This document shows, piece after piece, positions 19,521-46,048 of a stretch of DNA of 64,000 bases. The DNA is from Methylomonas sp. MK1 (GTDB lineage Bacteria > Pseudomonadota > Gammaproteobacteria > Methylococcales > Methylomonadaceae). Location of the stretch: positions 62,001 through 126,000 of the forward strand of contig NZ_AQOV01000003.1 in assembly GCF_000365425.1 (NCBI RefSeq). Direction: 5' to 3'. The notes beneath the pieces were generated by a model that was given only the letters and a program-made list of their open reading frames with translations, did no database searches and was not told the DNA's origin. How positions within the stretch are numbered: the stretch's first letter is position 1; each line of letters opens with the position of its first letter. Position numbers and translations under genes: made by a program.

Positions 19521-21713
19521 ATGATCGCGAAACATGTTTCGATGAAGTCGATTAAGAAAAGCGACTTCGGCGCACTTGTCGGTTACATATCTGATGACCA
19601 GGATAAGAGCGAGCGTGTTGAGTACACCTCTGTGACTAACTGCCAGTCGGATGATTTAAGGTCGGCAATAATTGAAGTAACCACTGTCCAGGGGATGAAC
19701 ACCCGAGCTGAATCGGATAAGACCTATCACCTGATTCTGAGTTTTCGCGAAGGCGAACATCCCAGTAATGAAATCTTAAAAGAGATTGAAAGTAACATTT
19801 GCGAAGGGCTCGGGTATGGTGAGCATCAGCGCGTTAGTGCTGTTCATTGCGATACGGATAACCTCCACATGCATATTGCTATAAACAAAATTCATCCGAC
19901 ACGCTTAACTATTCATAACCCATATAACGACCATAAGGTTCTTGGTAAGTTGTGCGAGTCCCTAGAAATAAAGTACGGCCTTGGACGAGATAATCACCTA
20001 TCGAACAAGGTGCCAAGTGAAAACCGTGCTGCTGATATGGAGCGGCATGCTGGTGTTGAAAGCTTGCTCAGTTGGATTAGGCGCGAATGTTTAGAGCAGC
20101 TCCATGTAGCGGCTTCTTGGGGTGAGTTTCACAAGGTCCTTCAGGAGCATGGCCTTACATTGCAGGAAAAAGGCAATGGCTTTGTCATTGCAGATCATGA
20201 AGGCTTGATGGTGAAGGCGAGTACCGTTGCGCGTGATTTATCTAAGGGAAAGCTTGAGGCTCGTCTTGGATTATTTGAGGCCTTGATAAATGGGTCTGGT
20301 ACTGCTTCGCTATCTACCGGGCGGTCGAAGGCATATGAAGCTAAGCCGGTTGGCTCCAGGATTGATACAACGCTGTTGTTTGCCAGGTATAAGAATGAGC
20401 AGGCCAATCAAGGAGCGCTACGTGCTCAGCAATGGAAGTCGGCCAGAGAAGAGAGAGCTCGTAAGGTGGTTGCCGCCAAGCGAGCGGCTAAATTAAAGCG
20501 GGCTGTGATAAGGCTCTCTGCGAAATCTCGCATGGAGAAAAAGATCTTGTACGGTCTGGTTAGTAAATCTTTGTTGGCCGATTTGCAAACGGCTAACGAG
20601 CGCTACCACGTCGCGAGGCAATCAATATTTGAAACGCACAGGCCACAACAGTGGGCGGACTGGTTAAGGTGTAATGCGTCCATGGGTGATGTTGACGCGC
20701 TTGCAGCATTACGTGCCAGGGAAGTGGCCAAGGGGTTAAAGGGGAATACCGTCGGGGCGGCTGGGGGCGCGCGTTCAACGCATGGTGTGAATGCTGTACA
20801 GGATAGCATCACAAAGAAGGGCACCGTCATTTATCGTGTCGGGGCATCTGCTATTCGCGATGATGGTGACAAGCTTAAGGTATCGCGTGGTGCTTCCGTC
20901 GATGGATTGGAGGCGGCGTTACGGATGGCGATGGATAGATATGGGAGCACAATCACGGTTACTGGCAGCATTGAATTTAGAGCGCAAATCGTAAAAACGG
21001 CGGTGGATGCTGCTATTCCTTTGACTTTTGCTGATCCTCTCCTGGAGAGGCAGCGGCTGTCTTTATTAAATGAGACTACGGAGAACAGAAATGGGCACTC
21101 AACTGACCGAGGAAGAGGAGTTGGAAGCGGCGATAGCGGCATTGGATCAGGAGTCCGTAATTCCAGTGGAGGGCGATTCGATGAAGGAGGGCGACGGAAT
21201 GGGATCTTCGGATTCATCAATAAGCCCAACGTTAGCGGCGTTGGGCGTCGACCGCCGCCCGAAAGTCGTAACCGTTTGCGAGACTTGTCCAGTCTCGCTA
21301 TGGTTCGCTTCGCCAGTGGAATTGAAATGCTATTGTCGGGCAATGTATCTGGTGGTATGGAGCACCAAGGATCCGACACAAATAACGCATTGCGACGGCC
21401 AGTTTCTGGATCAGGATTGATCGTATTTGTGGAGGCCGATAAGTACATTGCTGAACGTGATGAAAAGCGGTTAAAGGGCGTTAATGTGCCGGTGCATAGG
21501 CGGTTCTGTGAGGGTGATGCGGGCATGCTGCCTTTTGCTGGCTTGCGGCATGTTGATGGCAGATTTCTTGCGCTTCTAAAGCGCGATGATGTTGTATGTG
21601 TCTTGCCGGTAGACGAGAAAACGGCCGCACAATTAAAGCGCTTATCTATAGGTGATGCTGTGTCTGTTGGTGAATCGGGTTCGATAAAACTCACAAAAGG
21701 TCGACGCAGATAG
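19521..21713 (+). CDS. traI: TraI relaxase (MOBP family)
   Basis: The 730-residue protein matches RK2 TraI (732 residues). The relaxase domain at about residues 1-290 carries Tyr22 in GALVGYISD, which would make the covalent bond to the nicked strand, and the metal-binding motif VHCDTDNLHMHIAIN. A Gly/Arg-rich linker at about 520-580 overlaps a second gene in another frame. The conserved C-terminal third includes DVVCVLPVDEKTAAQLKRL. It cleaves oriT at nic and pilots the strand through TraG into the recipient. The annotated ATG is followed by the conserved IAKHV start. Confidence 0.95.
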   Translation: MIAKHVSMKSIKKSDFGALVGYISDDQDKSERVEYTSVTNCQSDDLRSAIIEVTTVQGMNTRAESDKTYHLILSFREGEHPSNEILKEIESNICEGLGYGEHQRVSAVHCDTDNLHMHIAINKIHPTRLTIHNPYNDHKVLGKLCESLEIKYGLGRDNHLSNKVPSENRAADMERHAGVESLLSWIRRECLEQLHVAASWGEFHKVLQEHGLTLQEKGNGFVIADHEGLMVKASTVARDLSKGKLEARLGLFEALINGSGTASLSTGRSKAYEAKPVGSRIDTTLLFARYKNEQANQGALRAQQWKSAREERARKVVAAKRAAKLKRAVIRLSAKSRMEKKILYGLVSKSLLADLQTANERYHVARQSIFETHRPQQWADWLRCNASMGDVDALAALRAREVAKGLKGNTVGAAGGARSTHGVNAVQDSITKKGTVIYRVGASAIRDDGDKLKVSRGASVDGLEAALRMAMDRYGSTITVTGSIEFRAQIVKTAVDAAIPLTFADPLLERQRLSLLNETTENRNGHSTDRGRGVGSGDSGIGSGVRNSSGGRFDEGGRRNGIFGFINKPNVSGVGRRPPPESRNRLRDLSSLAMVRFASGIEMLLSGNVSGGMEHQGSDTNNALRRPVSGSGLIVFVEADKYIAERDEKRLKGVNVPVHRRFCEGDAGMLPFAGLRHVDGRFLALLKRDDVVCVLPVDEKTAAQLKRLSIGDAVSVGESGSIKLTKGRRR
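21091..21420 (+). CDS. traH: TraH-like acidic protein nested in traI (candidate)
   Basis: An open frame of 109 codons lies wholly within traI in another frame. It begins MGTQLTEEEELEAAIAALDQ and is strongly acidic in its first half, with a cluster of cysteines later. In RK2 the acidic protein TraH, which stabilises the relaxosome, is likewise encoded inside traI out of frame and in the same part of the gene. The ATG follows GGAGAACAGAA, a usable ribosome binding site. Assignment rests on position, acidity and length, since I cannot align the sequences. Confidence 0.6.
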   Translation: MGTQLTEEEELEAAIAALDQESVIPVEGDSMKEGDGMGSSDSSISPTLAALGVDRRPKVVTVCETCPVSLWFASPVELKCYCRAMYLVVWSTKDPTQITHCDGQFLDQD

Positions 21714-21894
21714 CCGCCTTTTTTTCGCGCTAGATGTCAGTCCGGTTTTTCCTGGCCGGTTTCGTATAAAAAAATTAATGTGATTGCCTTCATAACTCAT
21801 TGTTGATAGTATATTTTATTAGATATATTGCTTATTTAAAACAGTTATTAGGTGGGGTGTCGTTTTTCACTTCGTGAGCCATAGCTTAGGGTGT

Positions 21895-21907
21895 TTTAGC
21901 CGCTAAA
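21895..21907. promoter_or_regulatory. KorB-type operator upstream of traG
   Basis: An exact TTTAGCCGCTAAA lies 59 bp before the traG start in the 253-bp traI-traG gap. The rest of the gap is AT-rich around 21765-21845 and could contain the traG promoter, but no clear boxes stand out. Confidence 0.82.
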
Positions 21908-21966
21908 ACGCGAGTTCTATTGTTTACTCATTCCTGCCGCCTGTTATCACTAAAGAGGCTTATCAA

Positions 21967-23880
21967 ATGAAAGATAAATTTAACAATGCAGTCGGTCCAC
22001 AAATTCGGGCGGGTCAGCCAAGGGTTGGCCTCGTCATACCCGCATTGGCTATCGCGTCGCTTGTTGCTGGGCTTCAATCTGCTACTCAGTTCTTTGCCGA
22101 CGAATTTAACTATCAGTCTACGCTAGGTCCTCAGTACAACCATATTTATGCACCTTGGGCGGTTTTGCGCTGGTCTAGTGATTGGTATGGGTTATATCAA
22201 GAAAGCTTTATGAAGGCGGGCAGTGTTGGTATCTCTGTAACCGCTGTCGGATTGTTAGGGCTTATTGTTGCCAAAATGGTGATTGCTAATTCCTCTAAGG
22301 CTAATCCGTATTTACATGGCTCGGCCAGATGGGCCAACAAAGAGGATATTCAAGAGGCTGGCTTATTACCTCGTTCTGGTGGTTTGATTTCTAGGCTTCT
22401 CGGCAAAAAGACTTCGCCGGTGTCAGGCGTATATGTAGGTGCATGGATCGATAAAAATGGTGTTACCAGGTACTTGCGACATAACGGGCCTGAACATGTT
22501 CTCTGTTATGCGCCCACACGATCTGGTAAGGGGGTTGGTTTGGTTATTCCTACGTTGCTGTGTTGGGAACGTAGCGCAGTTGTTACCGACTTGAAAGGCG
22601 AATTATGGGCGCTGACTGCTGGTTGGCGGAAGAAGTATGCCAGAAATAGGGTATTACGTTTTGAGCCCGCTGCTTTGCAAGGTAGCGTATGTTGGAATCC
22701 ATTGGATGAAATTCGAATTGCAACGGAGTACGAAGTCGGCGACGTGCAGAATTTAGCAACATTGATAGTCGATCCAGATGGTAAGGGTTTAGAAACGCAT
22801 TGGCAGAAAACAGCTCAAGCGCTACTTGTCGGTGTGATTATGCATGTTCTATATAAGGCCAGGGATGAAGGTGGCGAGGCGTCTTTACCTATTGTGGATG
22901 CAATTATGTCTGATCCTAATAGGGATATTGCCGAGCTGTGGATAGAGATGACAACCTATGGGCATGTGTTCGGTAAAAATCATCCGGTGGTTGGCTCTGC
23001 CGCTCGGGATATGATGGATCGTCCCCCAGAAGAGGCCGGTTCCGTTCTCTCTACAGCTAAGTCGTATCTCGCTTTGTATCGCGATCCAGTTGTCCAGCGC
23101 AATGTGCGTAAGTCCGAGTTTCGCATCAAAGATCTGATGAATTTCGATGATCCTGTCAGTTTATACATTATCACTCAGCCTAATGATAAGGCTCGGCTAA
23201 GGCCATTAGTTAGGGTAATGGTGAACATGATTGTTAGGCTTTTGGCTGACAAGATGGAATTCGAAAACGGTCGTCCGAAGGCTCATTACAAACATCGAAT
23301 GTTAATGATGCTGGATGAGTTCCCTAGTCTTGGAAGACTAGAGATTTTGCAGGAGTCATTGGCTTTTGTTGCTGGTTACGGCATTAAGTGCTATTTGATT
23401 TGCCAGGATATTAACCAATTAAAGAGTCGTGAAACGGGCTATGGCGCTGATGAGTCGATAACATCTAACTGCCATGTGCAAAATGCATATCCACCTAACA
23501 GGGTTGAGACTGCTGATCATCTTTCCAAGTTGACCGGTCAAACCACTGTCGCAAAGGAACAAATCACAACCAGTGGTCGGCGTACCAGTGCTTTATTGGC
23601 ACAAGTCTCTAGGACCATTCAAGAAGTACAAAGACCTTTGTTGACTCCGGATGAATGCTTACGCATGCCTGGGCCAGTTAAGGGCGCTGATGGGTTGATT
23701 GAGAAGCCTGGCGACATGGTGATTTATGTAGCAGGATACCCTGCAATTTACGGTGTCCAGCCATTATATTTCAAGGACCCGGTGTTTCAGGCAAGGGCGT
23801 CTATTCCACCGCCCAAGGTATCCGACAAGTTACTTAAGACGCATGAAATATCGCGTGGCGCTGAGGCGATTAAGTTATGA
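21967..23880 (+). CDS. traG: TraG, type IV coupling protein (VirD4 family)
   Basis: The 637-residue protein matches RK2 TraG (635 residues). It has two N-terminal membrane spans (about residues 22-42 and 85-105), Walker A in APTRSGKGVGL near residue 182, and Walker B in MLMMLDEFPSLG near 450. It is the hexameric inner-membrane ATPase that links the TraI-DNA relaxosome to the Trb channel. AAAGAGG supports the start. The stop overlaps traF as ATGA. An upstream KorB site suggests repression once the plasmid is established. Confidence 0.96.
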   Translation: MKDKFNNAVGPQIRAGQPRVGLVIPALAIASLVAGLQSATQFFADEFNYQSTLGPQYNHIYAPWAVLRWSSDWYGLYQESFMKAGSVGISVTAVGLLGLIVAKMVIANSSKANPYLHGSARWANKEDIQEAGLLPRSGGLISRLLGKKTSPVSGVYVGAWIDKNGVTRYLRHNGPEHVLCYAPTRSGKGVGLVIPTLLCWERSAVVTDLKGELWALTAGWRKKYARNRVLRFEPAALQGSVCWNPLDEIRIATEYEVGDVQNLATLIVDPDGKGLETHWQKTAQALLVGVIMHVLYKARDEGGEASLPIVDAIMSDPNRDIAELWIEMTTYGHVFGKNHPVVGSAARDMMDRPPEEAGSVLSTAKSYLALYRDPVVQRNVRKSEFRIKDLMNFDDPVSLYIITQPNDKARLRPLVRVMVNMIVRLLADKMEFENGRPKAHYKHRMLMMLDEFPSLGRLEILQESLAFVAGYGIKCYLICQDINQLKSRETGYGADESITSNCHVQNAYPPNRVETADHLSKLTGQTTVAKEQITTSGRRTSALLAQVSRTIQEVQRPLLTPDECLRMPGPVKGADGLIEKPGDMVIYVAGYPAIYGVQPLYFKDPVFQARASIPPPKVSDKLLKTHEISRGAEAIKL

Positions 23881-24398
23881 AGCGGCTTACTTCATTGATT
23901 TCCCTTCTTGGTATTTCATATCTGGCTTTCTGTGGAATCGCCTACGCCGTTGGCGCGCGCTTTAACTCCACACGTAGTATTCCTGTTGGCATTTACTGGG
24001 AAACTCGCGACCCGGTCGAGAAAGGGGCTTATGTAATGTTTTGTCCCCCGCAATCGGAAGTGTTCGATTTAGCAAAGACTCGGGGCTATATCGGTGCTGG
24101 ATATTGCCCTGGCGGATATGGCTACATGATGAAAAAAATTTTAGCGGCTAAAACGGATGTCGTTTCCATTGGTGATGATGGAGTACGGGTTAATGATGTT
24201 TTATTGCCATATAGCGCCCCTTCAGAGCTTGATGGGGCAGGTCGCCCAATGCCGAAATTCAGGACAACCCATGAATTAGGTGAATCAGAAGTTCTACTTA
24301 TGACTGATATAAACAAGGGTTCGTTCGATGGTCGCTATTTTGGCTTAATCAATCGCTCTCAAATCACGGGCGTTATACGTCCTGTTTTAACTTGGTAA
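23877..24398 (+). CDS. traF: TraF, peptidase that matures the conjugative pilin
   Basis: The 173-residue protein is a membrane-anchored S26-type peptidase with an N-terminal span (about residues 7-25). The nucleophile region reads NSTRSIPVGIY, the probable general-base lysine lies in MMKKILAAK, and SFDGRYFG holds the conserved late Asp. In RK2 TraF removes the last residues of TrbC and closes it into a ring; trbC is at 105. A KorB operator is embedded in the coding sequence at the codons for ILAAK. The start overlaps the traG stop. Confidence 0.9.
   Translation: MKRLTSLISLLGISYLAFCGIAYAVGARFNSTRSIPVGIYWETRDPVEKGAYVMFCPPQSEVFDLAKTRGYIGAGYCPGGYGYMMKKILAAKTDVVSIGDDGVRVNDVLLPYSAPSELDGAGRPMPKFRTTHELGESEVLLMTDINKGSFDGRYFGLINRSQITGVIRPVLTW
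24140..24152. promoter_or_regulatory. KorB-type operator inside traF
   Basis: An exact TTTAGCGGCTAAA is part of the traF reading frame (codons for LAAK). It may be a site for KorB spreading or a roadblock within the operon. That it is flanked by A- and T-rich sequence as at the other sites suggests it is not a chance match. Confidence 0.7.
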
Positions 24399-24412
24399 AA
24401 ACGGAGGTTTTT

Positions 24413-26611
24413 ATGCAGTTGTTTATTGCGGAAAAGCCCGATCTTGCTAAGGCCATTGTTGATGGTTTAGGCGGCGGATCGCGTAAAGATGGTTACTATG
24501 ACTGCGGCGATAGTTATGTGACATGGTGCTACGGTCACATGCTGCAACTGCTGGACCCAGAGGACTACGATCCCAGATTCGGGAAATGGAATATGGATGA
24601 TTTGCCTATTTACCATATCCCGTGGAAGAAAAAGCCATCGAATGATAAGAAAGACCAACTCAAGATCATCACCACCTTATTAAAGCAAGCCAAGAGCGTT
24701 GTACACGCGGGCGACCCTGACGATGAAGGCCAGCTATTGGTTGATGAAGTCTTGGAGTATGCGGCTTGTTCGCTGCCTGTTAAACGATTGCTCATCAATG
24801 ACAACAATATCAGTGTCGTTAAGAGGTCGCTTGCAAGTATGCGCGACAATCGGGAGTTCGCTGGTTTGTCGGCGGCGGCGGAGGCACGAAGTATTGGTGA
24901 TCAACTTTACGGTTACAACATGAGCCGTGCATATACGTTGGCCGCGAATAAGGCAGGTTTTCAAGGTGTGTTAAGTGTCGGTCGAGTACAGACTCCTATC
25001 CTTGGTCTAGTTGTTAGACGGGATAGGGAGTTCGAAGCTCATACCAAGAGCTATTACTACAATGTGACTGGACAATTTACTTTTGGCGATTTGTCGTTTC
25101 CGGCCAGGTATCAGATTGTTAATGAGGATCCTGTTGATGAGAAGAGCCGTCTATCCAATCAGGGCCATGCGCAGGGTATCGCTGATGCGGCAAAGGGCGC
25201 ACAGGCAACCCTTGTTAGTGCGGCTACCAAAAAGAAAGATCAGCATCCGCCGCTTCCTTACAATTTGTTGAAGCTTCAGACAGATGCTTCGCGGAAGTTC
25301 GGGTTTCGTCCAGACCAGACGAAGGACATAACGCAATCGTTACGCGAAAAGCACAAACTGATTACATACAATCGGAGTGATTGTGAATATCTCAGTGAAG
25401 ACCAACATGGCGATGCGCCGAATGTTCTGGACGCTATTGCGAAGACGGCACCGACGCTAACGCTTGTCGCGCAAAAGGCTGACCCGTCGATAAAAAGCCG
25501 TGCGTTCAATTCTTCAAAGGTAAGTGCCCACCACGGAATCATTCCAACTGAGGCCACAGCCGATTTTTCTAAACTGACTGATGGCGAGCAGAAAATCTAC
25601 ATGTTGATTGCCCGCGCTTATGTCGCACAGTTCTGGCCTAAACATCAATACGATCAAACCGATATTTTTGTTGAAGCCGCTACACATCGGTTTGCTGTTC
25701 GCTCGAACATTACTACCTTGGCTGGCTGGAAGTCGCTGTATCGAAACGATATAGGTAATGAGGATTTAGAGGGTGATGAAAACGACATCGCCCTTGATCT
25801 TCGAGTGTTAAAGGCGGGGCAGGCAGGTGATTGTACTGACGCCGTTGCGAGCCAGATGGAGACGAAGCCGCGACCACTGTACACAATGGCCACCCTTTTA
25901 ACGGACCTTACTCGTGTTGCTCAATATGTGCGTGATGATCGTCTACGGGAGCTCCTGGTCGAAAAGGACAAGGGCAAAGAAGGCGAGCATGGAGGTATTG
26001 GTACACCGGCTACGCGAGACACCATTATTGCCACTTTATTTGATCGTGGCTATTTGGCGGAGAAGGGTAACAACATTATCAGCACTCCGACGGGGCGGGA
26101 GTTTTACGATACCTTGCCGGATAAAGCCAAATATCCCGATATGACCGCTCTATGGCACGAACAACAAAAGGCTATTCAGAGCGGCGACCTCAATGCGATT
26201 TCCTTTGTCAATGAGTTGATGGAGTACATCGGTGCAGAGGTGGCTAACGTTAAGCAGAATGGCATTGGGATCAAGGTTGCTTTCAATCCTTGTCCTGATT
26301 GCGGAAAGCCTTTGCGCCGCATTAAGAAAAAGGACAAAAACGAGTTCTTTTGGGGTTGTACTGGGTTCGCCGATGGGTGTCGGTTTGCAGCAGAAGACAA
26401 GTCTGGTAAGCCAGTCCCTAAACAAGCGCCTCTAGTGTCTGCCGTACATAAATGCATGTCATGTGGAAAAGGCTTGTCAAGGCGGCCAGGAAGAAAGAAG
26501 GGTGCGTTCTGGTGGGGATGTAGTGGGTTCCCCACATGCAAACAAACTTACCCAGACATTAAGGGACAACCGGATTTTAACAATAGCAAACAGGGTGGAC
26601 GTGATGAATAG
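24413..26611 (+). CDS. traE: TraE, type IA DNA topoisomerase (TopB-like)
   Basis: The 732-residue protein starts [20 protein letters not shown], a Toprim start with catalytic Glu, and includes DPDDEGQLL (Toprim metal site) and [17 protein letters not shown]. The active-site tyrosine is expected in [12 protein letters not shown] near residue 315. Two C-terminal zinc-ribbon-like segments with CPDCGKPL and CMSCGKGL close the protein. It resembles topoisomerase III and the TraE protein of the RK2 Tra1 region. The start is fixed by ACGGAGG; an upstream in-frame start at 24392 would overlap traF. Confidence 0.9.
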
Positions 26612-26834
26612 CAATGATGATGTAAATGACTTAAATGTGGATACGGAAGTAGATTCGGCGTTAGCGGTAGATACGGTAGATGTTGTGGCCGTGAAGTTAC
26701 TTGATGCTATGGTGCCTGGTGCTGTAGTGGAATTCGATCCCGACGAGGCCGAACGGCTTGGTGCGTTCAATGAAGACGCCTTAGATGAGGCCGATGCATT
26801 GGAAAGCCGTATCGATTCAACAAGTCATGAATAG
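26604..26834 (+). CDS. TraD-like small acidic protein
   Basis: The 76-residue, very acidic protein starts at an ATG that overlaps the end of traE. It contains [20 protein letters not shown] and then a helix rich in Asp and Glu. It occupies the place of traD between traE and traC in the RK2 Tra1 operon, and I recall a similar LLDAMVPG segment in that protein, so TraD is the likely equivalent. Function is unknown. A longer frame back to 26463 is open but would overlap traE by 150 bp. Confidence 0.6.
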
Positions 26835-26845
26835 GTGTCTGATCA

Positions 26846-29800
26846 ATGGCAAAGAAACCTATTTCTAATCAAGGACAACTCGATTTTTTCAATGTTTTTG
26901 AAGATTGGCTTGTTCCCGAGCCTACGTCGGCTGACAAACCAGAGGCGGCGATTAAGGAACGCCTGGAATCATCCCCTAATGATGCTCGACATTTACTCGC
27001 ATTACGATTAGCACAACGTCTGAGTGAAGATGGTGGTGTTACATCCAAGGTATTAACCGAGGAAGCTAATCGTGCGTTTGGCGGAACCCAGGCGGGTGGC
27101 GACTATTTATCTAAGGATGCTTATGATGCCTTAGAAGCTGCTTTTAACATCCACTTGCTCGGGACCGAAGACCCGAATTGGAACGCATTGAATGCCGACG
27201 AAGCCAAGCTAAAGGTCGTTGACTTAACAAATAGGATTCAACGGGTGCCTACTCAGACGCGACGTGATGAAGAAATGGAGGAATTCCAGCAGTTCAGCAC
27301 ACCGCCCGCGCTCTCTTTTGTCGCTAATTGGGTTGCTAATGTCAAGAAAGATGATGTTATGGAGGAACCGTCGGCTGGTACAGGCGACTTGGCTATATGG
27401 TCAAAGATGGTAGGGGCCAAACTGATTCTGAATGAATTGTCCCCCCGTAGACAAGCTCTATTGGGAGCCTTGTTCCCAGAGGCAACAATCTTTAAAGAGA
27501 ATGCCGAGCAGTTGGATAACGTTCTACCTACCGACTTTAAGCCGACAGTGGTTGTTATGAATCCGCCATTTAGCTCGACTGCTGGTCGTGTCCAAGGACA
27601 GAGAGATACAACTAATGGCGCAAGACATCTCGAACAGTCATTAAAGCGCCTAGAGCAAGGCGGGCGACTGGTGGCGATTGTTGGAAACGGAATGGCCGCG
27701 GATAAGCCTGCCTTTGCTTCATGGTGGAAAGATGTACAAGCCAAATACAATGTAAGGGCCAACATAGGCATTTCCGGGCGAGAATATGCCAAATACGGGA
27801 CCACATTCGACAATCAAATTTTAGTAATCGACAAAAACGGGGCCACGACGCAGGCGATATTGACCGGCAAAGTAGATTCGGTGGCCGATTTACCAGCATT
27901 ATTAGAGGGCATAAGAAATGACCGTCAACACATTCAATCAACACCCGATAAACAGGCAAGCCGCCCAAACACTCCGCCAGTGTCAGATACCATTCAATCC
28001 GGAAACGGAGTTAGCGGCATTAGCATTGGTGCGGACGGCGTTAGAGCGGAATCTGCTGGAAACGGGGCCGATTCCGGAACCACTCCTATTGATAGCGAAG
28101 TTAGAGGCTCAACCGAAGATAGCTATGTCCCTAATGACGGAATCGGAGCCGGGAGTGGAGTTCCAGATAGAGTTATCGGAAACGTTGGAGGAAGCAGCGG
28201 CGGAGATACTGGAGGAAATAGTAGCCTCACTACAAGCAACAGTACCGCAAGCGTTGCAGTAGAAGCTAAGGATGATCTGGCTACCGAATTTACTGATTCT
28301 GTCTTTGCTAACTACGCTCCACAACGTCTTACAGTACAAGGCGCTAAACCACATCCAGGCAAATTGGTGCAGTCGGCGGCAATGTCTGCTGTCCAACCAC
28401 CTGCACCGTCATATGCCCCATTATTGCCAAAGGGATTGATCGAAGACGGATTGCTTTCGATTGCTCAAATTGAGGCCGTTGTTTATGCAGGGCAAGCGCA
28501 CTCAGAAACTTTGCCGAATGGTTCAAGGAAAGGCTTTTTCATTGGTGATGGCACTGGTGTTGGTAAGGGACGCGAAATATCCGGCATCATTTTGGATAAC
28601 ATGTTGCAAGGTCGGAAAAAAGCCGTTTGGGTTTCTTTTAATGAAGGCTTGATAGAGGATGCTAAAAGGGATTTTGCTGGTGTGGGTGGCGACCCGTCAA
28701 AATTGTTTTTCCAGGGAAAGACCAAAGCTGGTAATGCAATCACTCAAGAAGAGGGCATTTTATTCACAACTTACTCGACGCTACGCGGCGGCGAGAAAAA
28801 GCAGGCAAATGATTTGGGACAAAAGGGCGGTAAGTCTCGCGCTCAACAGATCATAGATTGGTTAGGTAAGGATTTTGATGGTGTTATTGCATTTGATGAA
28901 GCCCATAGCATGGGCAATGCCATTGCGATTAAGGGAAAACGAGGCGTCAAGAAGCCATCACAACAAGCGATAGCCGGTATTAACTTACAACGCGAATTGC
29001 CTAATTCGCGTGTTACCTATGTGTCAGCCACCGGAGCTACCGAGATAAGCAATCTTAGTTACGCGGATCGTCTAGGTTTATGGGGCGAGGGCACGCCGTT
29101 TGCTGACACAACTGCCTTTATCAACGGGGTGTCGAAAGGCGGCATTGCATCAATGGAATTGATCAGCCGAGACATGAAGGCGATGGGCATGTATTTGGCC
29201 AGGTCGCTGTCCTACGATGGTGTCTCGTATGAGCGCTTGGAACATCCACTATCTGATTTACAGGAAGATATTTACAACGAGCTCGCCGGCGCTTGGCAAG
29301 TCGTTTTAAATAATGTTGAGCAAGCTCTTGAACTCACTCAAGCCGGTAAGAGTGGTCCGGGTAAAAGTGCGGCTATGTCTCAGTTCTGGGGCGCCCATCA
29401 ACGATTTTTCAATCAAATTGTCACAGCCATGCAGACGCCGGCAGTGATAGACCATATTCGCGATCAACTGGACGCTGGTCACGCGGCTGTGATTCAGTTG
29501 GTAAATACAAACGAAGCAGCACAGGAGCGGATTATTGCCGACGCTACGGCGAATGATGCCCTTTTGGAGGAATTGGATTTTACGCCTCGGCAAATGCTAA
29601 TGGATTATGTCAGAAACGGATTCCCGGTAGCTGCTTATGAGCAAACACAAGACGCTAACGGCAACACCACCTACGTTCCAGTACGTGACTCGGAAGGGAA
29701 TCAAGTATTTGATCGAGAGGCAATTGCTTTGCGCGATTCGCTGCTGGACACGTTGCATCAAATCCGTGTTCCTGAAAATCCATTGGACTCAATCATCAAT

Positions 29801-32800
29801 GCTTTTGGTTCTGATCGGGTCGCAGAGGTTACTGGCCGTGGACGTCGGTTTGTTCAAACGCGCGACGATGAAGGCAATCTGAAAGTCGTCGAAGAGAAGC
29901 GAGGCAAACATTCTTCTAGGGCTGATTCGGAGGCCTTTCAGGCTGACAAAAAGGACATTCTCATATTCTCGGGCGCTGGCGGGACTGGCTATAGCTTTCA
30001 TGCCGATAATACAGCGGAGAATCAACGTAAGCGAATTCATTACATCTTGCAACCTGGTTGGCGGGCTGATGCCGCTGTGCAAGGGTTTGGGCGAACTCAC
30101 CGAACCAATCAAGCTCAGGAGCCGCATTATGTATTGCCTACCACCAATTTAAAGGCACAAAAGCGATTTGTGTCGTCAATTGCTCGTCGACTAGATCAAC
30201 TCGGAGCGCTTACTCGAGGACAGAGAGAAGCGACTAGCCAAGGTATGTTTACCGCTTCCGACAATCTTGAAAGCCAATATGCATCGACCGCGCTGAATAA
30301 CTTTTTTCGTGATCTGTATCGTGGGACCACAAGCCTTAAGTTCCACGAAGTTACCAAGCAGATGGGGCTTAATCTGCTTGATGAAAATGCTTCATTGAAT
30401 GAGAGCAATCTGCCGGCTATACCGCAGTTTTTAAACCGCCTGCTGTCACTGAAAACTGACATGCAGAATCAAGTTTTTGGTGAATTCGAGCAACGTCTTA
30501 TTGAAGCCGTTGATTATGCAAAGCAACGTGGTTTGTACGATGTTGGTCTACAGACAATGACCGCTTTGAGTATCCAAAAAACGCGGGATGATGTTGCTTA
30601 TGAGGATAAGAAAACCGGTGCCCAGACTCGTTATGTTGAGTTGGCCGTCACCAATGAAGTCCACTATTACAAGTGGGATGAGGTTAAAAAGTTCGTCAAG
30701 GAAAACCCTAAAGAAGGTGATCTAAGCGGGTGGTTTGTCTCTGAATTCGGAAAGAGCAAAGGCGATGTGTTTTATCTCGGAGACATTGGGGAGCGGTTAG
30801 ATTCCGATGGTAAATCTGTCCGTCGCGGTATTGTTCATACAATCAAAAAACATGACTATCGATATATCGACAACGCCGACGTTATCAGTCGCGGGTATGA
30901 CTATCGAACAGTTAGTGCAAATGGTGTTGGCTCTTATCAGAGGGTTACTTTGACTCGGGCGATAGACGAAACCGAAGCAAAAAAACTTTGGAACGAGCAA
31001 ATCGCCAATGCCCCGAAAACTGAAACAAAAACCGAACGCATGCTTGTCGGTGTCATTTTGCCAATCTGGGATCGTGTCGAAGGTGCCGAAACCATTCAAC
31101 GATTACAAACAGACGACGGTGAACAATTACTTGGCCGAATGTTGGGGCCTAAGTCCGCCAAACAAACACTGAAAAATCTAGGCCTTGATTCCGGTCTTGC
31201 TGGAATGTCGGTGGGCGATTTGTTCGAATCAATCAAAAAGGGTAACAAAGCAATTCTATCGAATGGTTGGGAGATTTCTACTGCGAAGGTGAATTTTGAA
31301 GACCGTATAGAGATTAAGGGTCGTAGTTATTTTACTGACGCAGAGAAACGATTGCTAAAAGATCAAGGCGCTTTTGTGGAGCGCATCAATTGGTCTGATA
31401 GAGTTTTTATACCTACTGGCGAAGGTGGGGTAGGGGTTTTTGAACGCATCACTGCTTCAAAACCTGTTGTCGATCTAATTGAGAAGAATCGCGGTAAGGA
31501 CTCCGCAAATAGTGAAAGTGACGATTTGGATATGCATGTCCACGATTCATCATTACCGGTTGGTGACTCGACAGACGTTATTGAGACTTCAGCCGATTCT
31601 GGCGATTCAACATTTTCCCCTTGCACGCAACCACCGGATCAAGAGGGTATTTTTCTATTAGCGAATAGGCAATACGCGAAGTTTCAACACGGCCTTTGGT
31701 ATCTCTCATACCCAACTCCAAAGGAAGCGGCTCAATCCGAATGGAATATTCCTGGAAATATGATTCCGTCTGATAGGTACCCTGATCAATCATGGGTGCT
31801 TTACTCTCATGGAAGAAAGGATGCGTTTTTTGGCGAGATTGTTACGCCAGGGGCCAAGGTGAAGATCGACGAGATTACCAACCCCACCACAACCAATGTA
31901 GTCGGCATTGCCGTCGCTCCAACAAATGGCGTTATTCGTCAGGAGGGTGTTTCAATGGAAAAAGCTAAGAAACCTTTTCACGAAGTTGTTGCCGAGAAAT
32001 TAATTGCACAACTAGAACAAGGTACGGCCCCGTGGCAACGGCCTTGGAACCCGGACGAGGCAGGTGGATTTCTGCCATATAACCCTCTTACCGGAAAGCG
32101 ATATAAAGGTATCAATACTCTCAATTTGTTGTCGGAGGATAGAAACGATAATCGGTGGATGACCTATAAACAAGCTGGGGAACTTGGTGGTCAAGTCCGA
32201 GAAGGCGAGAAGAGTACTGGTGTTCAATATTGGAAATTTACCGATGAGCAAATAAAGCGGGATGATAACGGCAATCCGGTTTTAGACGGAGAAGGCAAAC
32301 CGGTCAAGGTGGTCGTAAAGTTAGAACGTCCACGGGTTTTCTTTGCAAGTGTGTTTAATGCTGAACAGATCGATGGTTTGCCGCCGCTAGAAAAGAAAGA
32401 GGTAACTTGGAATCCCATTGAACGAGCTGAAAATATATTGGCGGCTTCGAGAGCCGATATACATCATAACGGTGGTAGCCGTGCGTTTTATAGACCGTCT
32501 ACTGATAGCATACATTTGCCGGAAAAAGGTCAATTTCCAACCGCAGAGAATTACTATGCGACCGCGTTGCATGAGTTGGGGCACTGGACTGGACACGAAG
32601 ACCGGCTGAATCGGGACATTGCACATCCATTCGGAAGTGAGGCTTACGCCAAAGAAGAATTAAGGGCGGAAATTGCCAGTATGATCTTGGGTGAAGAGCT
32701 TGGTATTGGTCATGATCCTGGTCAACATGCGGCTTATGTTGGCTCGTGGATTAAGGCTTTGCGGGATGATCCAATGGAGATTTTCCGGGCGGCGTCCGAT

Positions 32801-35800
32801 GCGGAAAAAATTCAGGCATTTGTTCTCGGGCTCGAACAAGCTTTAGTTCAAGAGCAGGGCCAAGCGCTAACTGCCGATCAGCGACAACCTCATGAACTGA
32901 CATTGTCTGAGTTTGCTTCTCAGGTAGTTGTCGAGCAGTTGGAAAATCATGGTCGAAAATGGAATGTTTCGTTAGGAGCCTATTCGGCTTTTTCCGACGC
33001 GGAAAGTTCTGCTGATACTGTTGCCGATGTTCATCGTGCCGCCGTAAAAAATGCACTTTATCTAAATTCATCTGAAAACACGCAAGGCTCTATTTCGGCC
33101 ACTATGCCACCGTTGCCGGTATTGATTGAGTATCCCGATCTTGTAAGGGATTACGGATTTCAAAGTAAGTTGGTCGAGTTTAAGGATGTAACACGCGGAG
33201 CATATTCGGGACAGGTCGACCAAACGTTAATCGCGGAGGTTGGTGGGTTTCAAGTAGGGAAACTGGATTACTCAATCTATAACGGAATACCCGCAATCCA
33301 GATGGTCGAAGTGGAAAATGATCATCGCCGGCTGGGGTACGCTACAGTGCTTGTAAAACAGTTGCAGCGCCAATTTCCTAATACAGAAATTGAATGGGGC
33401 GAATTAACTGAGGATGGTGAAAAATTTCGAGGTAGCTTGCGAATTACCGAAAAGCCTAGCGAACATGCACCAGAATTTGAGCGGCTAAATATAGCAATTG
33501 CAGAGCGTGACCGATTGCTTTCCGAGGCAAATTACTTCAATGCTCTCAAGAATTCGACGCCAGAGCAGATTGAAACGTATTCGAATCTAACCGAGCCACT
33601 TAACAATTTGCATGACTTGATTTATGACTTGGAAAACGAATTATCCAATCAGACCGAAACTGTTAGGTTAATTGATACCGAAAATGTAACTACATTCAAC
33701 AAATCTATCGGCGCTGACAACTCGACGACGATTACTGTAGCCGAGCTGACTGCGGTCGAATATCAGGCGCTAGTGGATGCTGATGAGGTATATCAGCGTG
33801 AGCTGGTTCGTGTCTATGGGGAAGACAAAGCGGGCGATGCCCGCTATTTACAAAAGCACGAAGATCCGGTCTTACAAGAGGCTGCTTATGCTTTCCATGC
33901 CGCTTCTGATGTTTGGCATAGCGCTGTTGCCGATGCCAGAAAGACGTTGGCCGGTGACAATACAATTCCACATGTTATGGATGAACGCACTGGCGATGCG
34001 AAGTTATCTTCTGGCTTGGCGGCTGATATTTCGACCGTCTTGCAGCGGTCGGAAGAATGGACGTTCGATCATTTTCAAGACTACGAAGGGGATAGCCTGG
34101 ATGCCGCTTTGCGTAAGGAAGGGTTACATACCCTTAAGGATGTTACAGGCGATCTACCTGGGCAGTTTTTTGACAATGCTATTCGTCGTCTCTCGCCTGT
34201 TTTTGGTATAGAGCCCGATGATTTTAGCGTTACCAATGCTTACTTAGAACGCAAGGGGTTGGCTCAGGCGTTCCAGACAATGGCCGCTAGGTTAGTCCAG
34301 GAACAAACACAACAAGTTTCTTCGTCTGCGATCACCTTATCCAAAGAAGGTGTTGAGTTGGATAGGCGCAATGTGCTCGATCTGTTCCCAGAGCTCAATG
34401 GTCCAGATGGCAAACCGAATGGATTTGGCATATCGAAAATTATTTTAATGCCAGACGGTAAGGTTGTTATCGATAGTGACAGCAAGAAAGCAATCGTGGC
34501 CGATACATCAGCGCAGTCCGAAACCGGGGTCACACATCAGGATATTGCTGACTATTACGAACGTGGATTTATTAAAACGGTGGTATTACCGGAATCTACT
34601 AAAACTGAAACAGCTCAATTTGAAGGGGGCGTTATGCGCGATCCTGATGTTAATTCAACTGAACGTCTTTTAGAGGATTCGGTGCGGAATATTGAGTACG
34701 CGCAAGAGGTCATTCCTGAATGGCGTGGTAGTTACGTTCAAGAGCAGGGCAATGGAAATGTTCGCCTTGCTCTTGATTTAATTGAAAGGGGTGAAATCGA
34801 TAAAGCGATTGATGCACTATGGTTAAACGTCGACCTAGAACACCGGTATGGTGGTGAAAACAGCGATGAGTTTCGTGACGTCATAAAAGTAGTGGAAGAA
34901 GACTGGCGGAAATGGCAAGCCGACAATGGAGTTGGCCCGGCTATCACACCGGCTATGAAACGGGAATTTGATGACTTGCCGCGCGATCTGAGTCAGTTAT
35001 CGGGTGCGACGTTCGAAGAGTATCAAAAGGCGGCGGAGGCTGCCAGATTAGATGAGCAAGCCGTAATGAATGACCCGGATAGCTCTGATGAAGACATATC
35101 TGCCGCTCGGGAGAAGAGGAAATCCGCCGATCTGTTGGCTACGGTAAACAATTCAGACTTTCAAAATAAAGTTTCTGAATTTGAACAGAAACAAGCGGCT
35201 GCCAATTTGTCCGGCCTCGGTGGTGATAGTGTGCGGCCAGACCAACAAAACACAGGAAATGATAAGACCTTTATTGCAGTGCCTTTCCGCGAGAAAGAGG
35301 AAGCTAAAGCATTGGGTGCCAAATGGGATAGGCAACATACATCCTGGTTCATTCCTGTTGGTGTTGATCAATCGGCGTTTTCTAAATGGTTGCCGTCGGA
35401 GTCCGGAGAAGTAAAAGTAACGTCAGTCGCTAATTCTCAGGTGGGTAAACCAACCACCTCCGATAAGTTATACCTCGCTGTTCCCTATTCGGAGAGAAAG
35501 GCCGCGAAAGAAGCCGGCGCTAAGTGGGATGCCGGCGCTAAATCTTGGTATGTCGGCCAAAATGCCAATATGGACAAGTTGCAACGTTGGTTGCCTGATA
35601 GCACTAAACCGCAGCAAGAACCGGCAATGACGCCGCGCGAAGAGTTTTCATCGTTACTTAAGGATATGGGGTTTGTGCTTTCGGGAAACCATCCAGTTAT
35701 GGATGGACAGCGTCATAGGCTTGAAACAGTTGGTGATAAGGCTGGCGAGAAAGCTGGATTTTATGTTGCTCACCTGGATGGTCATCCTGCCGGTTTTGCT

Positions 35801-36886
35801 CAAAATAATCGTACCGGCGAAGCCCAGAAATGGAAGTCAAAGGGCTATTCGCTTAGCGATGGAGAAAAGGCGGAATTGCAAGCTCAAAGCGCTTCTAAGT
35901 TGCAAGCAAGAGAAAACGAGATAAAAGCTAAACAGGATGCCGTCGCGGCGTCTATAAGACAGCTACTTGCTATCGCTCCGCCTGCATCTGCCGATCATCA
36001 ATATTTGCAATCGAAGGAAGCCCGGCCAGGTGATCTTCGAATGGTGCCGACCGATTCAACAATGTTGCCTCCCGATTCGGCAGTAATGATTGGTAAAACA
36101 TGGAAGGAGTCGAAGGAGCTGCGGGACTCGCACCCGGATAAACTGGTGTTCACCGCTGGTGATTTGCTCTTGTCGGCGCAAGATGTCAGTGGCGTAATTC
36201 GATCAGTACAATCTATCCAGGAAAACGGCGTGAAGCGCTTTGCTGCTGGTGGTGCTAAGCAAGACATGTTTCATGTTGTCGGCGGCAATGGCGTGGAAGC
36301 GTTGGCGAGAGCTCCGGCCATAGTGATAGGTGAGGGGTATGCTACGGCTGATACGTTATCCCAGTCCCTGAGCTATCCAACAATCGCGGCCTTCGATTCA
36401 GGCAATTTGCCACACGTTGCGAAGTTATTGCGCAACCGGTTTCCGGACAAACCTATCATCATTGCCGGGGATAATGATTTACATCAGGAACTGACCGAGG
36501 GCCGCAATCCTGGTAAGGAAAAGGCAGCGGCGGCTGCAAAAGCGGTCGGAGGTGTAGCTTTGTTTCCGATTTTCGCCCCTGGTGAGCAGGCTTACCCAGC
36601 CGATCTTGATCCAGTTACGCCGGCACTGGCAAAAAATGGGGGGTTATCGGATGCCCAGAAAGAGGCTATCTCGAATATGAAGTCCTTCACGGATTTCAAC
36701 GATCTTGCGACAAAAAGTGAATTAGGTTGGGAAGGAGTTGAACGCCAGGTAACTAATGTCGTGAATAAAATCGTATCCAATCATCATGAACGAATTGAAG
36801 CCAGACAGCAGCAAGATAATGTTCAGCGCCTAGAGCTGCAACAACGGCAGAAACTAGCGTCGCGCAACGCGGTTGCAATTATTTAG
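26846..36886 (+). CDS. Giant multidomain protein: methylase, SNO helicase, ArdC, Toprim primase (TraC-like)
   Basis: The 3346-residue protein ends the tra operon where RK2 has the primase gene traC (about 1060 residues). Domains in order: adenine-methyltransferase-like core (EPSAGTG at 174-180, NPPF at 239-242); Gly/Ser linker (about 385-475); Strawberry-notch-type helicase (Walker A GDGTGVGKG with Lys574, DEAH 684-687, QGFGRTHR from 1079) with a long C-terminal part to about 1560; ArdC-like ssDNA-binding domain (about 1704-1860); zincin-like domain with HELGHWTGH at 1909-1917; GNAT-like segment (RRLGYAT at 2161); two DUF5710-like repeats (about 2807-2848, 2873-2918); Toprim with Glu3163 and DND 3209-3211. 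It probably enters the recipient with the DNA, to prime and protect it; this is inferred. Confidence 0.88.
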   Translation: MAKKPISNQGQLDFFNVFEDWLVPEPTSADKPEAAIKERLESSPNDARHLLALRLAQRLSEDGGVTSKVLTEEANRAFGGTQAGGDYLSKDAYDALEAAFNIHLLGTEDPNWNALNADEAKLKVVDLTNRIQRVPTQTRRDEEMEEFQQFSTPPALSFVANWVANVKKDDVMEEPSAGTGDLAIWSKMVGAKLILNELSPRRQALLGALFPEATIFKENAEQLDNVLPTDFKPTVVVMNPPFSSTAGRVQGQRDTTNGARHLEQSLKRLEQGGRLVAIVGNGMAADKPAFASWWKDVQAKYNVRANIGISGREYAKYGTTFDNQILVIDKNGATTQAILTGKVDSVADLPALLEGIRNDRQHIQSTPDKQASRPNTPPVSDTIQSGNGVSGISIGADGVRAESAGNGADSGTTPIDSEVRGSTEDSYVPNDGIGAGSGVPDRVIGNVGGSSGGDTGGNSSLTTSNSTASVAVEAKDDLATEFTDSVFANYAPQRLTVQGAKPHPGKLVQSAAMSAVQPPAPSYAPLLPKGLIEDGLLSIAQIEAVVYAGQAHSETLPNGSRKGFFIGDGTGVGKGREISGIILDNMLQGRKKAVWVSFNEGLIEDAKRDFAGVGGDPSKLFFQGKTKAGNAITQEEGILFTTYSTLRGGEKKQANDLGQKGGKSRAQQIIDWLGKDFDGVIAFDEAHSMGNAIAIKGKRGVKKPSQQAIAGINLQRELPNSRVTYVSATGATEISNLSYADRLGLWGEGTPFADTTAFINGVSKGGIASMELISRDMKAMGMYLARSLSYDGVSYERLEHPLSDLQEDIYNELAGAWQVVLNNVEQALELTQAGKSGPGKSAAMSQFWGAHQRFFNQIVTAMQTPAVIDHIRDQLDAGHAAVIQLVNTNEAAQERIIADATANDALLEELDFTPRQMLMDYVRNGFPVAAYEQTQDANGNTTYVPVRDSEGNQVFDREAIALRDSLLDTLHQIRVPENPLDSIINAFGSDRVAEVTGRGRRFVQTRDDEGNLKVVEEKRGKHSSRADSEAFQADKKDILIFSGAGGTGYSFHADNTAENQRKRIHYILQPGWRADAAVQGFGRTHRTNQAQEPHYVLPTTNLKAQKRFVSSIARRLDQLGALTRGQREATSQGMFTASDNLESQYASTALNNFFRDLYRGTTSLKFHEVTKQMGLNLLDENASLNESNLPAIPQFLNRLLSLKTDMQNQVFGEFEQRLIEAVDYAKQRGLYDVGLQTMTALSIQKTRDDVAYEDKKTGAQTRYVELAVTNEVHYYKWDEVKKFVKENPKEGDLSGWFVSEFGKSKGDVFYLGDIGERLDSDGKSVRRGIVHTIKKHDYRYIDNADVISRGYDYRTVSANGVGSYQRVTLTRAIDETEAKKLWNEQIANAPKTETKTERMLVGVILPIWDRVEGAETIQRLQTDDGEQLLGRMLGPKSAKQTLKNLGLDSGLAGMSVGDLFESIKKGNKAILSNGWEISTAKVNFEDRIEIKGRSYFTDAEKRLLKDQGAFVERINWSDRVFIPTGEGGVGVFERITASKPVVDLIEKNRGKDSANSESDDLDMHVHDSSLPVGDSTDVIETSADSGDSTFSPCTQPPDQEGIFLLANRQYAKFQHGLWYLSYPTPKEAAQSEWNIPGNMIPSDRYPDQSWVLYSHGRKDAFFGEIVTPGAKVKIDEITNPTTTNVVGIAVAPTNGVIRQEGVSMEKAKKPFHEVVAEKLIAQLEQGTAPWQRPWNPDEAGGFLPYNPLTGKRYKGINTLNLLSEDRNDNRWMTYKQAGELGGQVREGEKSTGVQYWKFTDEQIKRDDNGNPVLDGEGKPVKVVVKLERPRVFFASVFNAEQIDGLPPLEKKEVTWNPIERAENILAASRADIHHNGGSRAFYRPSTDSIHLPEKGQFPTAENYYATALHELGHWTGHEDRLNRDIAHPFGSEAYAKEELRAEIASMILGEELGIGHDPGQHAAYVGSWIKALRDDPMEIFRAASDAEKIQAFVLGLEQALVQEQGQALTADQRQPHELTLSEFASQVVVEQLENHGRKWNVSLGAYSAFSDAESSADTVADVHRAAVKNALYLNSSENTQGSISATMPPLPVLIEYPDLVRDYGFQSKLVEFKDVTRGAYSGQVDQTLIAEVGGFQVGKLDYSIYNGIPAIQMVEVENDHRRLGYATVLVKQLQRQFPNTEIEWGELTEDGEKFRGSLRITEKPSEHAPEFERLNIAIAERDRLLSEANYFNALKNSTPEQIETYSNLTEPLNNLHDLIYDLENELSNQTETVRLIDTENVTTFNKSIGADNSTTITVAELTAVEYQALVDADEVYQRELVRVYGEDKAGDARYLQKHEDPVLQEAAYAFHAASDVWHSAVADARKTLAGDNTIPHVMDERTGDAKLSSGLAADISTVLQRSEEWTFDHFQDYEGDSLDAALRKEGLHTLKDVTGDLPGQFFDNAIRRLSPVFGIEPDDFSVTNAYLERKGLAQAFQTMAARLVQEQTQQVSSSAITLSKEGVELDRRNVLDLFPELNGPDGKPNGFGISKIILMPDGKVVIDSDSKKAIVADTSAQSETGVTHQDIADYYERGFIKTVVLPESTKTETAQFEGGVMRDPDVNSTERLLEDSVRNIEYAQEVIPEWRGSYVQEQGNGNVRLALDLIERGEIDKAIDALWLNVDLEHRYGGENSDEFRDVIKVVEEDWRKWQADNGVGPAITPAMKREFDDLPRDLSQLSGATFEEYQKAAEAARLDEQAVMNDPDSSDEDISAAREKRKSADLLATVNNSDFQNKVSEFEQKQAAANLSGLGGDSVRPDQQNTGNDKTFIAVPFREKEEAKALGAKWDRQHTSWFIPVGVDQSAFSKWLPSESGEVKVTSVANSQVGKPTTSDKLYLAVPYSERKAAKEAGAKWDAGAKSWYVGQNANMDKLQRWLPDSTKPQQEPAMTPREEFSSLLKDMGFVLSGNHPVMDGQRHRLETVGDKAGEKAGFYVAHLDGHPAGFAQNNRTGEAQKWKSKGYSLSDGEKAELQAQSASKLQARENEIKAKQDAVAASIRQLLAIAPPASADHQYLQSKEARPGDLRMVPTDSTMLPPDSAVMIGKTWKESKELRDSHPDKLVFTAGDLLLSAQDVSGVIRSVQSIQENGVKRFAAGGAKQDMFHVVGGNGVEALARAPAIVIGEGYATADTLSQSLSYPTIAAFDSGNLPHVAKLLRNRFPDKPIIIAGDNDLHQELTEGRNPGKEKAAAAAKAVGGVALFPIFAPGEQAYPADLDPVTPALAKNGGLSDAQKEAISNMKSFTDFNDLATKSELGWEGVERQVTNVVNKIVSNHHERIEARQQQDNVQRLELQQRQKLASRNAVAII
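31941..31957 (+). promoter_or_regulatory. Internal ribosome binding site and start codon before the ArdC part
   Basis: AGGAGGG (31941-31947) stands seven bases before an in-frame ATG (31955) that encodes Met1704 of the giant protein. The next residues, EKAKKPFHEVVAEKLIAQLE, are the usual beginning of ArdC-type proteins. The signal is better than that of the full-length gene, so a 1643-residue C-terminal product may be made on its own. Confidence 0.65.
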
Positions 36887-42847: not shown

Positions 42848-42865
42848 TCCCCAGGAGTTCGCATC

Positions 42866-45800: not shown

Positions 45801-46048
45801 CACGACTGCGGCCGGTGCTGATGACCGCATTGGTGGCCTCGTTCGGTTTCGTACCGATGGCAATCGCCACCGGTACCGGCGCAGAAGTCCAGCGCCCGCT
45901 GGCCACCGTGGTGATAGGCGGCATCCTGTCGTCAACGATGCTGACTTTGTTGGTATTACCGATTCTATACTGGCTCGCGCACCGCAATGATCAACCCGTA
46001 AAGCCCATCATTCCGGAAATTGTGCAGATTGATTCCCATGAGGATTAA
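42866..46048 (+). CDS. czcA: CzcA-type RND heavy-metal pump
   Basis: The 1060-residue protein is a 12-span HME-RND pump. The fourth-span motif LDFGVIIDGAVVIVEN carries the D-D-E signature of the HME1 group (CzcA; zinc, cobalt, cadmium). Two large periplasmic loops and a duplicated fold are evident. It exports divalent cations by proton antiport. It is separated from czcB by 18 bp and from the P-type ATPase gene by 3 bp, so one operon makes both a periplasmic and a cytoplasmic exporter. Confidence 0.94.
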   Translation: MFERLIRLAIEHRWLVILAVLGMAGLGIFNYTILPIDAVPDITNVQVQINTTAPGYSPLETEQRITYPIETVMAGLPNLEQTRSLSRYGLSQVTVIFQDGTDVYFARQLVNQRIQEAKDKMPAGITPAMGPISTGLGEIYLWIVEAQEGAKKPDGSPYTATDLREIQDWIIKPQLRNVPGVTEINSIGGYAKQYQVAPIPEKLASYGLTLQDIVTALDRNNNNVGAGYIEKRGEQYLIRAPGQVHSMEDIRNIILGNVQGVPIRIRDVGEVEIGRELRTGAATENGREMVLGTVFMLIGQNSRAVSQAVDKKMADINRTLPEGVQAVTVYDRTVLVDKAINTVKKNLTEGAILVIVILFLFLGNIRAAIITAMVIPLSMLFTFTGMVTYQVSANLMSLGALDFGVIIDGAVVIVENCVRRLAHAQEQHGRSLTRHERFHEVFTASKEARRALLFGQLIIMVVYLPIFALTGVEGKMFHPMAFTVVIALVGAMILSVTFIPAAVALFIGDKVAEKDNVVMQTAKRVYAPVLIGVMRNKPVVLTFTLVAVMLSGLLATRMGSEFVPSLNEGDFAIQALRIPGTSLSQSVTMQQQIEATLKQQFPEIERIFARTGTAEIASDPMPPNISDGYIMLKPREQWPEPDKSRDDLLAAIQAAANKLPGNLYEFSQPIQLRFNELISGVRSDVAVKVFGDDMDVLNDTATEISAVMEAIPGASEVKVEQTTGLPMLTLNIDRDKTSRYGLNVGDVQDAVATAIGGTEAGTLFEGDRRFDIIVRLPESLRSNLDAINRLPISLPRGQNRDGQTSYIPLAEVASLEMAPGPNQISRENGKRRIVISANVRGRDIGSFVAEAEQKLQQKVKIPSGYWTSWGGQFEQLQSAAHRLQIVVPVALILVFTLLFMMFGNAKDGLLVFSGIPFALTGGLVALWLRDIPMSISAAVGFIALSGVAVLNGLVMIAFIRSLRDEGMSLDKAIVEGALTRLRPVLMTALVASFGFVPMAIATGTGAEVQRPLATVVIGGILSSTMLTLLVLPILYWLAHRNDQPVKPIIPEIVQIDSHED

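Follow-up and report, generated by a model that had tools for sequence, protein, structure and literature searches.

The giant gene and its place in the tra operon

The analysed DNA (the window) is a stretch of 64,000 nucleotides from Methylomonas sp. MK1, part of a contig of 146,999 bases that carries plasmid-type genes, among them a ParA-like gene, a KorB-family gene and one TrbE-family gene. A giant open reading frame (ORF) lies in the order traI-traG-traF-traE-traD-giant ORF, in the position that traC takes in a tra operon of the IncP type (Table 1). The short traD ORF owes its name only to the record of Methylomonas sp. LL1. Within the coordinates of the giant ORF, a probable second, nested gene was located in the linker between the methylase and helicase modules; this gene is the new part of the present analysis. 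The preliminary description of the window did not mention the overlap.

Table 1. Coordinates of the features at the locus, in window numbering
Feature	Position	Strand	Remarks
tra genes upstream	19521..26834	+	traI 19521, traG 21967, traF 23877, traE topoisomerase 24392, traD 26463
Giant TraC-type polyvalent protein gene	26846..36886	+	3346 aa, one open frame
Methylase module, HsdM-like DNA methylase fold	27026..27925	+	aa 61-360
Shine-Dalgarno-like AGAGGG ahead of the nested start	27904..27909	+	
Putative nested overlapping gene, +1 frame, ATG start	27918..28262	+	114 aa
Methylase-helicase linker, main frame	27926..28285	+	aa 361-480; third positions nearly frozen
Strawberry-notch (SNO) helicase, AAA_34 + Helicase_C_4	28349..30553	+	aa 502-1236, Pfam
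Variable slot S2, helicase to ArdC-N	31523..31942	+	39-437 residues in relatives
ArdC-N + MPTase-PolyVal zincin	31979..32797	+	aa 1712-1984; HELGH at 1909
Cargo slot S3	32858..35245	+	around aa 2005-2800; 32-854 residues long among relatives, with abrupt swaps
DUF5710 repeats	35246..35620	+	Pfam
Toprim primase module	35663..36715	+	aa 2940-3290; homologous to TraC primases

The single uninterrupted frame reported in the preliminary description was recovered. Joining of separate genes by sequencing errors, which that description had named among the things that would refute its reading, is not the origin of the frame: genome G076 carries it in full length (3346 aa) with 99.94% identity, and in a further genome, G177, the giant protein is 95% identical. 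An assembly or frameshift artefact was therefore rejected. The motifs listed earlier also stand where they had been placed (NPPF at 239, GTGVGKG at 569 with Lys574, DEAH at 684, GRTHR within 1080-1086, HELGH as in Table 1, and GDND at 3208), and most of the proposed domains were found by profile searches. Pfam matched the SNO helicase (AAA_34 at 502-812, E 2.4e-119; Helicase_C_4 at 978-1236, E 2.1e-88), the ArdC-like domain (ArdcN at aa 1712-1812, E 7.5e-31), the zincin (MPTase-PolyVal at aa 1859-1984, E 1.9e-49) and, twice, DUF5710 (3.9e-38). The ArdC-N and zincin region matches solved ArdC structures. The Toprim end had no match in Pfam and was recognized by PHROG DNA-primase families at aa 2987-3324 (best 2.2e-50); the C-terminal 356 aa share 61-62% identity with annotated TraC primases over 92-95% of their length.

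The methylase module has no Pfam match, and its AlphaFold model (mean pLDDT 73) retrieved type I M subunits by Foldseek at E 1.5e-11 to 2e-8 with low TM-scores (0.3-0.4 by query length), which supports an HsdM-like fold. Its EPS.G.G and NPPF motifs are invariant across 31 aligned sequences. The methylase and helicase form a dyad, in which an SF2 helicase adjoins a fold of the adenine methylase type that bears motifs I and IV. The GNAT-like patch, near aa 2126-2179 in S3, is present as a weak match: FR47 was obtained at E 0.011 with the whole protein and 0.0022 with the excised segment, both under Pfam's cut-off, and the best GNAT match by Foldseek had E 0.07.

The tra-gene order and the domains identify the ORF as traC, preceded in the same frame by a methylase-helicase part. 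It follows traI-G-F-E-D and contains ArdC-N, MPTase and a C-terminal Toprim primase module, as does the TraC/TraC1 primase of IncP plasmids, from which it differs by an added N-terminal dyad of methylase and SNO helicase (about 1550 aa), by the nested gene and by longer cargo. The wording "replacing TraC primase" was imprecise, as the C-terminal half is itself TraC, to which an N-terminal methylase-helicase has been added. Judged from gene order and domain content, the plasmid is a conjugative one of the IncP type, and its traC has been enlarged until it encodes a polyvalent protein. Polyvalent proteins, single polypeptides of mobile elements that unite at least two disparate domains, were described by Iyer et al. 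2017 (PMC5512222) and are thought to be sent into new cells with the DNA. The available text of that article describes the methylase-helicase dyad, ArdC-N, MPTase and Toprim, and cites a Methylomonas SNO member, WP_020485828.1. The protein studied here resembles this class in carrying the same four kinds of parts as disparate domains of one polypeptide in a conjugative element, and a relaxase and type IV secretion genes lie nearby. The preliminary description had considered a protein that may be delivered, prime the strand and shield it to be the strongest candidate for an undescribed system; this idea is already the polyvalent-protein model of the available text of PMC5512222, and the system is therefore not an undescribed one. 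The giant protein is a TraC-type member of the known polyvalent class, and relatives with the same domain order are numerous.

Relatives of the fusion and exchangeable internal segments

The domain order, which the preliminary description had proposed to look for in other elements, was compared in 112 rows (the window, 89 proteins and 22 loci, duplicates included). All five modules are present in 90 rows, with 84 distinct backbones, and their order is identical in 90/90. Among the best 120 of 1097 protein matches, a hand count found SNO, ArdC-N and MPTase together in 86, of which 80 also have DUF5710 and 13 also have RadC. In the bacterial order of the window, an SNO-ArdC query matched 35 of 301 genomes; both parts share one open frame in 18 of the 35, and in G251 they lie on two contigs. 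In the fused SNO-ArdC loci whose surroundings were examined, tra genes precede the ORF wherever the contig extends that far, except at locus L102, where traE- and traF-like ORFs are found downstream. Named hosts include Methylomonas, Methylotuvimicrobium, Methylobacter and Methyloglobulus.

Genes consisting of TraC only (842-1129 aa) occupy the traC place in G100 (two genes), G088 and G195, and G271 has one of 704 aa in a different neighbourhood. A methylase-helicase query had no match in these four genomes, a blank result that is no proof of absence by itself; the same query matched G000 and G008. Nitrosomonas halophila carries no more than the methylase-helicase part, in an ORF that stops within the SNO module, and alphaproteobacterial plasmids carry the same parts as separate adjoining genes. 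A single origin of the fusion was considered and rejected: a quick tree of 68 rows, with only six TraC-only rows and some long branches, requires four changes, at least three of them by starred branches.

Several relatives deviate from the intact form. In Methylotuvimicrobium alcaliphilum 20Z (L003, L051), an in-frame stop splits the giant gene after about 135 codons, and in a plasmid of Thioflavicoccus mobilis (L004) the orthologue is in several broken frames with an IS66 element inserted. The Pfam lists of two relatives, P0076 and P0085, include PF06414, the zeta toxin family, beside the SNO domains.

The distances between modules differ greatly in their variation, with 119-263 aa (median 121) between methylase and helicase, 39-437 between helicase and ArdC, and 32-854 between zincin and DUF5710. 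Locus L002 and protein P0005 have backbones 98.5% identical and share only 51-58% of the third slot. The window and the plasmid of Methylomonas sp. LL1 are 88-91% identical in DNA as far as two breakpoints within the gene, nt 4644/5095 and nt 6019/7172, between which blastn found no match. These comparisons of sequences indicate that the internal slots of the giant protein carry cargo that is exchanged between close relatives. The dN/dS ratio outside the methylase-helicase linker was 0.03-0.37 where computable, and 0.49 for the second slot against L047. Beyond what the available text of PMC5512222 offers, the slots appear here at fixed addresses in one orthologous gene, which lets the domain swapping of polyvalent proteins be watched among orthologues.

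Naming the cargo by Pfam largely failed, as it gave only DUF5710, a RadC (JAB) domain in S2 of L056, the weak GNAT match and a few other weak matches. For S3 the AlphaFold model is of low quality (mean pLDDT 65.9), and Foldseek gave it no match at E <=0.001. Another overlapping ORF in a cargo slot (33777-34211, +1) was rejected as a gene, since third positions showed no dip there against L098. A JAB-domain gene lies directly after TraC in a Nitrosomonas plasmid, L009.

A probable nested gene in the methylase-helicase linker

The nested ORF begins in the last methylase codons, behind a Shine-Dalgarno-like sequence, and lies in the linker, whose length is almost constant across relatives though its residues differ and whose model has pLDDT <50 from residue 374 on. 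It was surveyed in 44 loci that have both modules: the window, three plasmid records, the locus of one further genome, and 23 of 28 and 16 of 17 loci of two sets. Six loci of these sets fall outside the 44, namely L085, which carries the nested sequence of the window, L112, which also has a nested gene, and L095, L100, L107 and L118, whose methylase module is absent, cut by contig ends; a very distant methylase-SNO-like gene (L081) and locus L082 are excluded as well. The 44 loci are not independent, 16 being virus-classed IMG/VR contigs and many others MAGs; the distant members comprise MAGs of Firmicutes, Treponema and others besides virus-classed contigs.

The nested start stands at one codon (offset -2, counted from where the methylase module ends) in 44/44 loci, as ATG in 43 and GTG in one, and opens products of 108-145 aa. 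In the giant gene it falls within a codon for Asn. A Shine-Dalgarno match of at least 4 nt precedes it in 43/44; this figure, unlike the constant place, is partly by construction because the start-picking script favoured such starts. The Shine-Dalgarno sequence is retained while the main-frame peptide over it varies (LLEGIRND, LLKGVRDA, KLWEVRND, KLREVRDD). These features bear on whether ribosomes might pass from the methylase into the nested frame by a programmed +1 frameshift, so that a methylase-nested fusion would arise in place of internal initiation. The nested frame does start exactly where the methylase module ends, and internal Shine-Dalgarno sites can stimulate frameshifting; a start codon fixed in all loci at initiation-like spacing would nevertheless be unneeded for frameshifting, and we regard this reading as very unlikely.

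Substitution patterns point to selection on the nested frame. Against L002, L047 and L048, respectively, dS was 0.042, 0.000 and 0.086 in the linker, 0.244, 0.336 and 0.732 in the methylase, and 0.656, 0.023 and 0.368 in the helicase. In 11 pairs, all with the window, third positions of the main frame account for 18-31% of substitutions in the linker versus 60-86% in the flanks, and the changes within the linker cluster at nested-frame wobble positions. The dN/dS ratio was 0.10-0.65 for the nested frame in 15/15 pairs and above 1 for the main frame in 14/15, as computed by the Nei-Gojobori method, which is not designed for overlapping frames; the two estimates are also interdependent. In sliding windows over five pairs, codons 401-440 had a third-position change of 0.03-0.12, and no sliding window beyond the linker was low in all five pairs, much of S2 and S3 being unalignable. 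Substitution pattern, dN/dS and sliding windows, all of them simple counts, agree, and they support protein-coding purifying selection in the nested frame. The openness of the frame was discarded as proof: among 2000 codon shuffles keeping the main protein, 190 reached the nested openness for the window, and over 33 loci the counts ranged from 2 (L101, L119) to 1674 (L111), with <=100 in 11 of the 33.

That shuffles often attain openness by themselves would suit a linker conserved at the DNA or RNA level for other purposes, such as an RNA structure or a regulatory or transfer site, with a nested frame open by composition. It is hard, however, to reconcile such conservation with change that sits at the nested-frame wobble position, a nested dN/dS below 1 in every pair, a start and Shine-Dalgarno sequence kept in distant loci, and a nested-frame protein profile that uncovered a new distant case; we consider it extremely improbable. 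The nested gene is, on this comparative evidence, very probably real. To our knowledge, few long same-strand overlaps in prokaryotes that persist across so much sequence divergence are this well supported.

The nested proteins share 21-90% identity with that of the window across branches (23 aligned sequences), and 52 predicted proteins match it; the annotated records examined omit the inner gene. The protein of the window had no match in Pfam or PHROGs. With the 23-member alignment, NCBIfam gave one member at E 0.061, the PDB a best E of 0.11, and PHROGs matches of single members to three families (best E 0.0052), so that no significant match to a known family was obtained in Pfam (window protein only), PHROGs, NCBIfam or the PDB. 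By tblastn, the nested protein found four plasmid records, all known SNO orthologues. It had no match in 50,697 phage records, in which the methylase-SNO query gave just six weak methylase-like matches.

In the order, a profile of the nested protein alone picked out 19 genomes among 301. Seventeen of them belong to the 18 with a fused gene, whose remaining member, G292, is cut; the other two are G277, where the gene is nested and the contig cut, and G086 (L132). In the phylum it matched 2 of 398, the genome of the window and G731 (L134); the latter was found by this profile alone and has the gene nested within a methylase-SNO gene of 4815 aa. L134 and L079 (G454), whose methylase-SNO gene encodes 4954 aa, belong to other lineages, and both have the nested gene. 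Controls without a nested gene are few and were judged by eye: two separate-gene alphaproteobacterial SNO plasmids have no such start or protein, and P1 DarB, with a 177-codon open run between methylase and helicase, was rejected because the run has no Shine-Dalgarno start and looks random. In L010, one of these two separate-gene SNO plasmids, the +1 frame is open along the linker with no start there.

Possible roles of the giant protein and of the nested product

The available text of PMC5512222 does not mention a nested gene, the word "overlapping" being counted 0 times in it, and no description of the gene was seen among the matches listed from the mostly open-access literature on polyvalent proteins, DarB/P1, SNO and conjugative plasmids. 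Two further known systems share parts of the dyad. P1 DarB is likewise an annotated adenine methyltransferase and helicase that protects against some type I restriction (AF234172); it differs in having no significant match to the SNO helicase (best E 1.5). M.EcoGIX and M.BceJIII are also plasmid-borne m6A methylases (single-strand), and M.EcoGIX aids establishment in new hosts; neither a helicase nor a nested gene is described for them in the available text of PMC7736820.

By analogy with TraC1 and ArdC, the giant protein would be made in the donor and bound to the transferred strand through ArdC-N, and would pass through the TraG/Trb channel into the recipient, where the predicted primase would prime the second strand and the methylase-SNO dyad might run along the new duplex, methylating it against type I-like restriction. 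Alternatively, the giant protein might not be delivered and would then act only once the recipient expresses it. As the available text of PMC7213743 reports, expression of R388 ArdC in the recipient complemented and expression in the donor did not, and the protease mutant E229A performed as the wild type did; these results speak against any requirement for delivery or for the protease. RP4 TraC1, on the other hand, is stated as transferred in the available texts of PMC7213743 and PMC5512222, and the giant protein is its counterpart by place and domains. In a zygotic-induction table for RP4, the values are 1.0, 1.0, 1.3 and 1.5 for traC1 and 22.1, 6.5, 14.6 and 1.5 for traI (PMC7314908, in the part available), which would fit donor-made TraC. 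Exclusive expression in the recipient is judged rather unlikely, and delivery from the donor is retained in what follows.

On the sequence evidence, the nested gene is very probably an independent protein gene overlapping the dyad linker in the +1 frame, with its own predicted ribosome site on the same mRNA. We propose that the dyad is accompanied from synthesis on by this small, mostly acidic product as a partner, which would either keep it inactive or ready for export in the cell that makes both, or be one of its subunits. We hold this partner role to be evenly balanced between right and wrong. The product might instead act alone, for example as an anti-restriction DNA mimic or a fertility or immunity factor, merely travelling with the dyad gene. 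Its mostly acidic composition would suit this (pI <6 in 40/44), as would L132, where the nested gene is intact (10324-10665, minus strand, contig G086:C2) behind a relaxase-like ORF, the methylase is a short remnant and no SNO match was found within a 20-kb stretch; L132 also sits badly with an obligatory dyad partner. Yet 18 of the 19 places found without bias by the profile in the order lie within a methylase-SNO gene, L132 being the sole exception, the one new place in the phylum likewise lies inside such a gene, and two members are basic (L113, pI 8.0; L114, pI 9.2). Acidity being thus not universal, the acidic DNA mimic was set aside, and action of the product alone appears unlikely. The relaxase-like ORF of L132, upstream of the nested gene, has about 850 aa.

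The explanation as a whole, in which traC has grown into a polyvalent protein and an independent nested gene supplies a partner of the dyad, seems to us somewhat probable. A wider version remains tentative, a little short of an even balance: an ancient gene overprinted on the linker across phyla, in plasmids, phages and other elements, may encode a dedicated dyad partner (an off-switch, an export or packaging chaperone, or a subunit), and the delivered protein may have its slots after the protease and before ArdC-N. As the nested gene is tied to an invasion methylase-helicase, it points to an overlooked component of anti-restriction.

Other plasmid genes in the window include RND-type efflux genes (OEP, HlyD and ACR_tran families) downstream of the giant gene, at 39951-46048, and a cytochrome P450 gene adjoining that of a TonB-dependent receptor, at 6166-9515.
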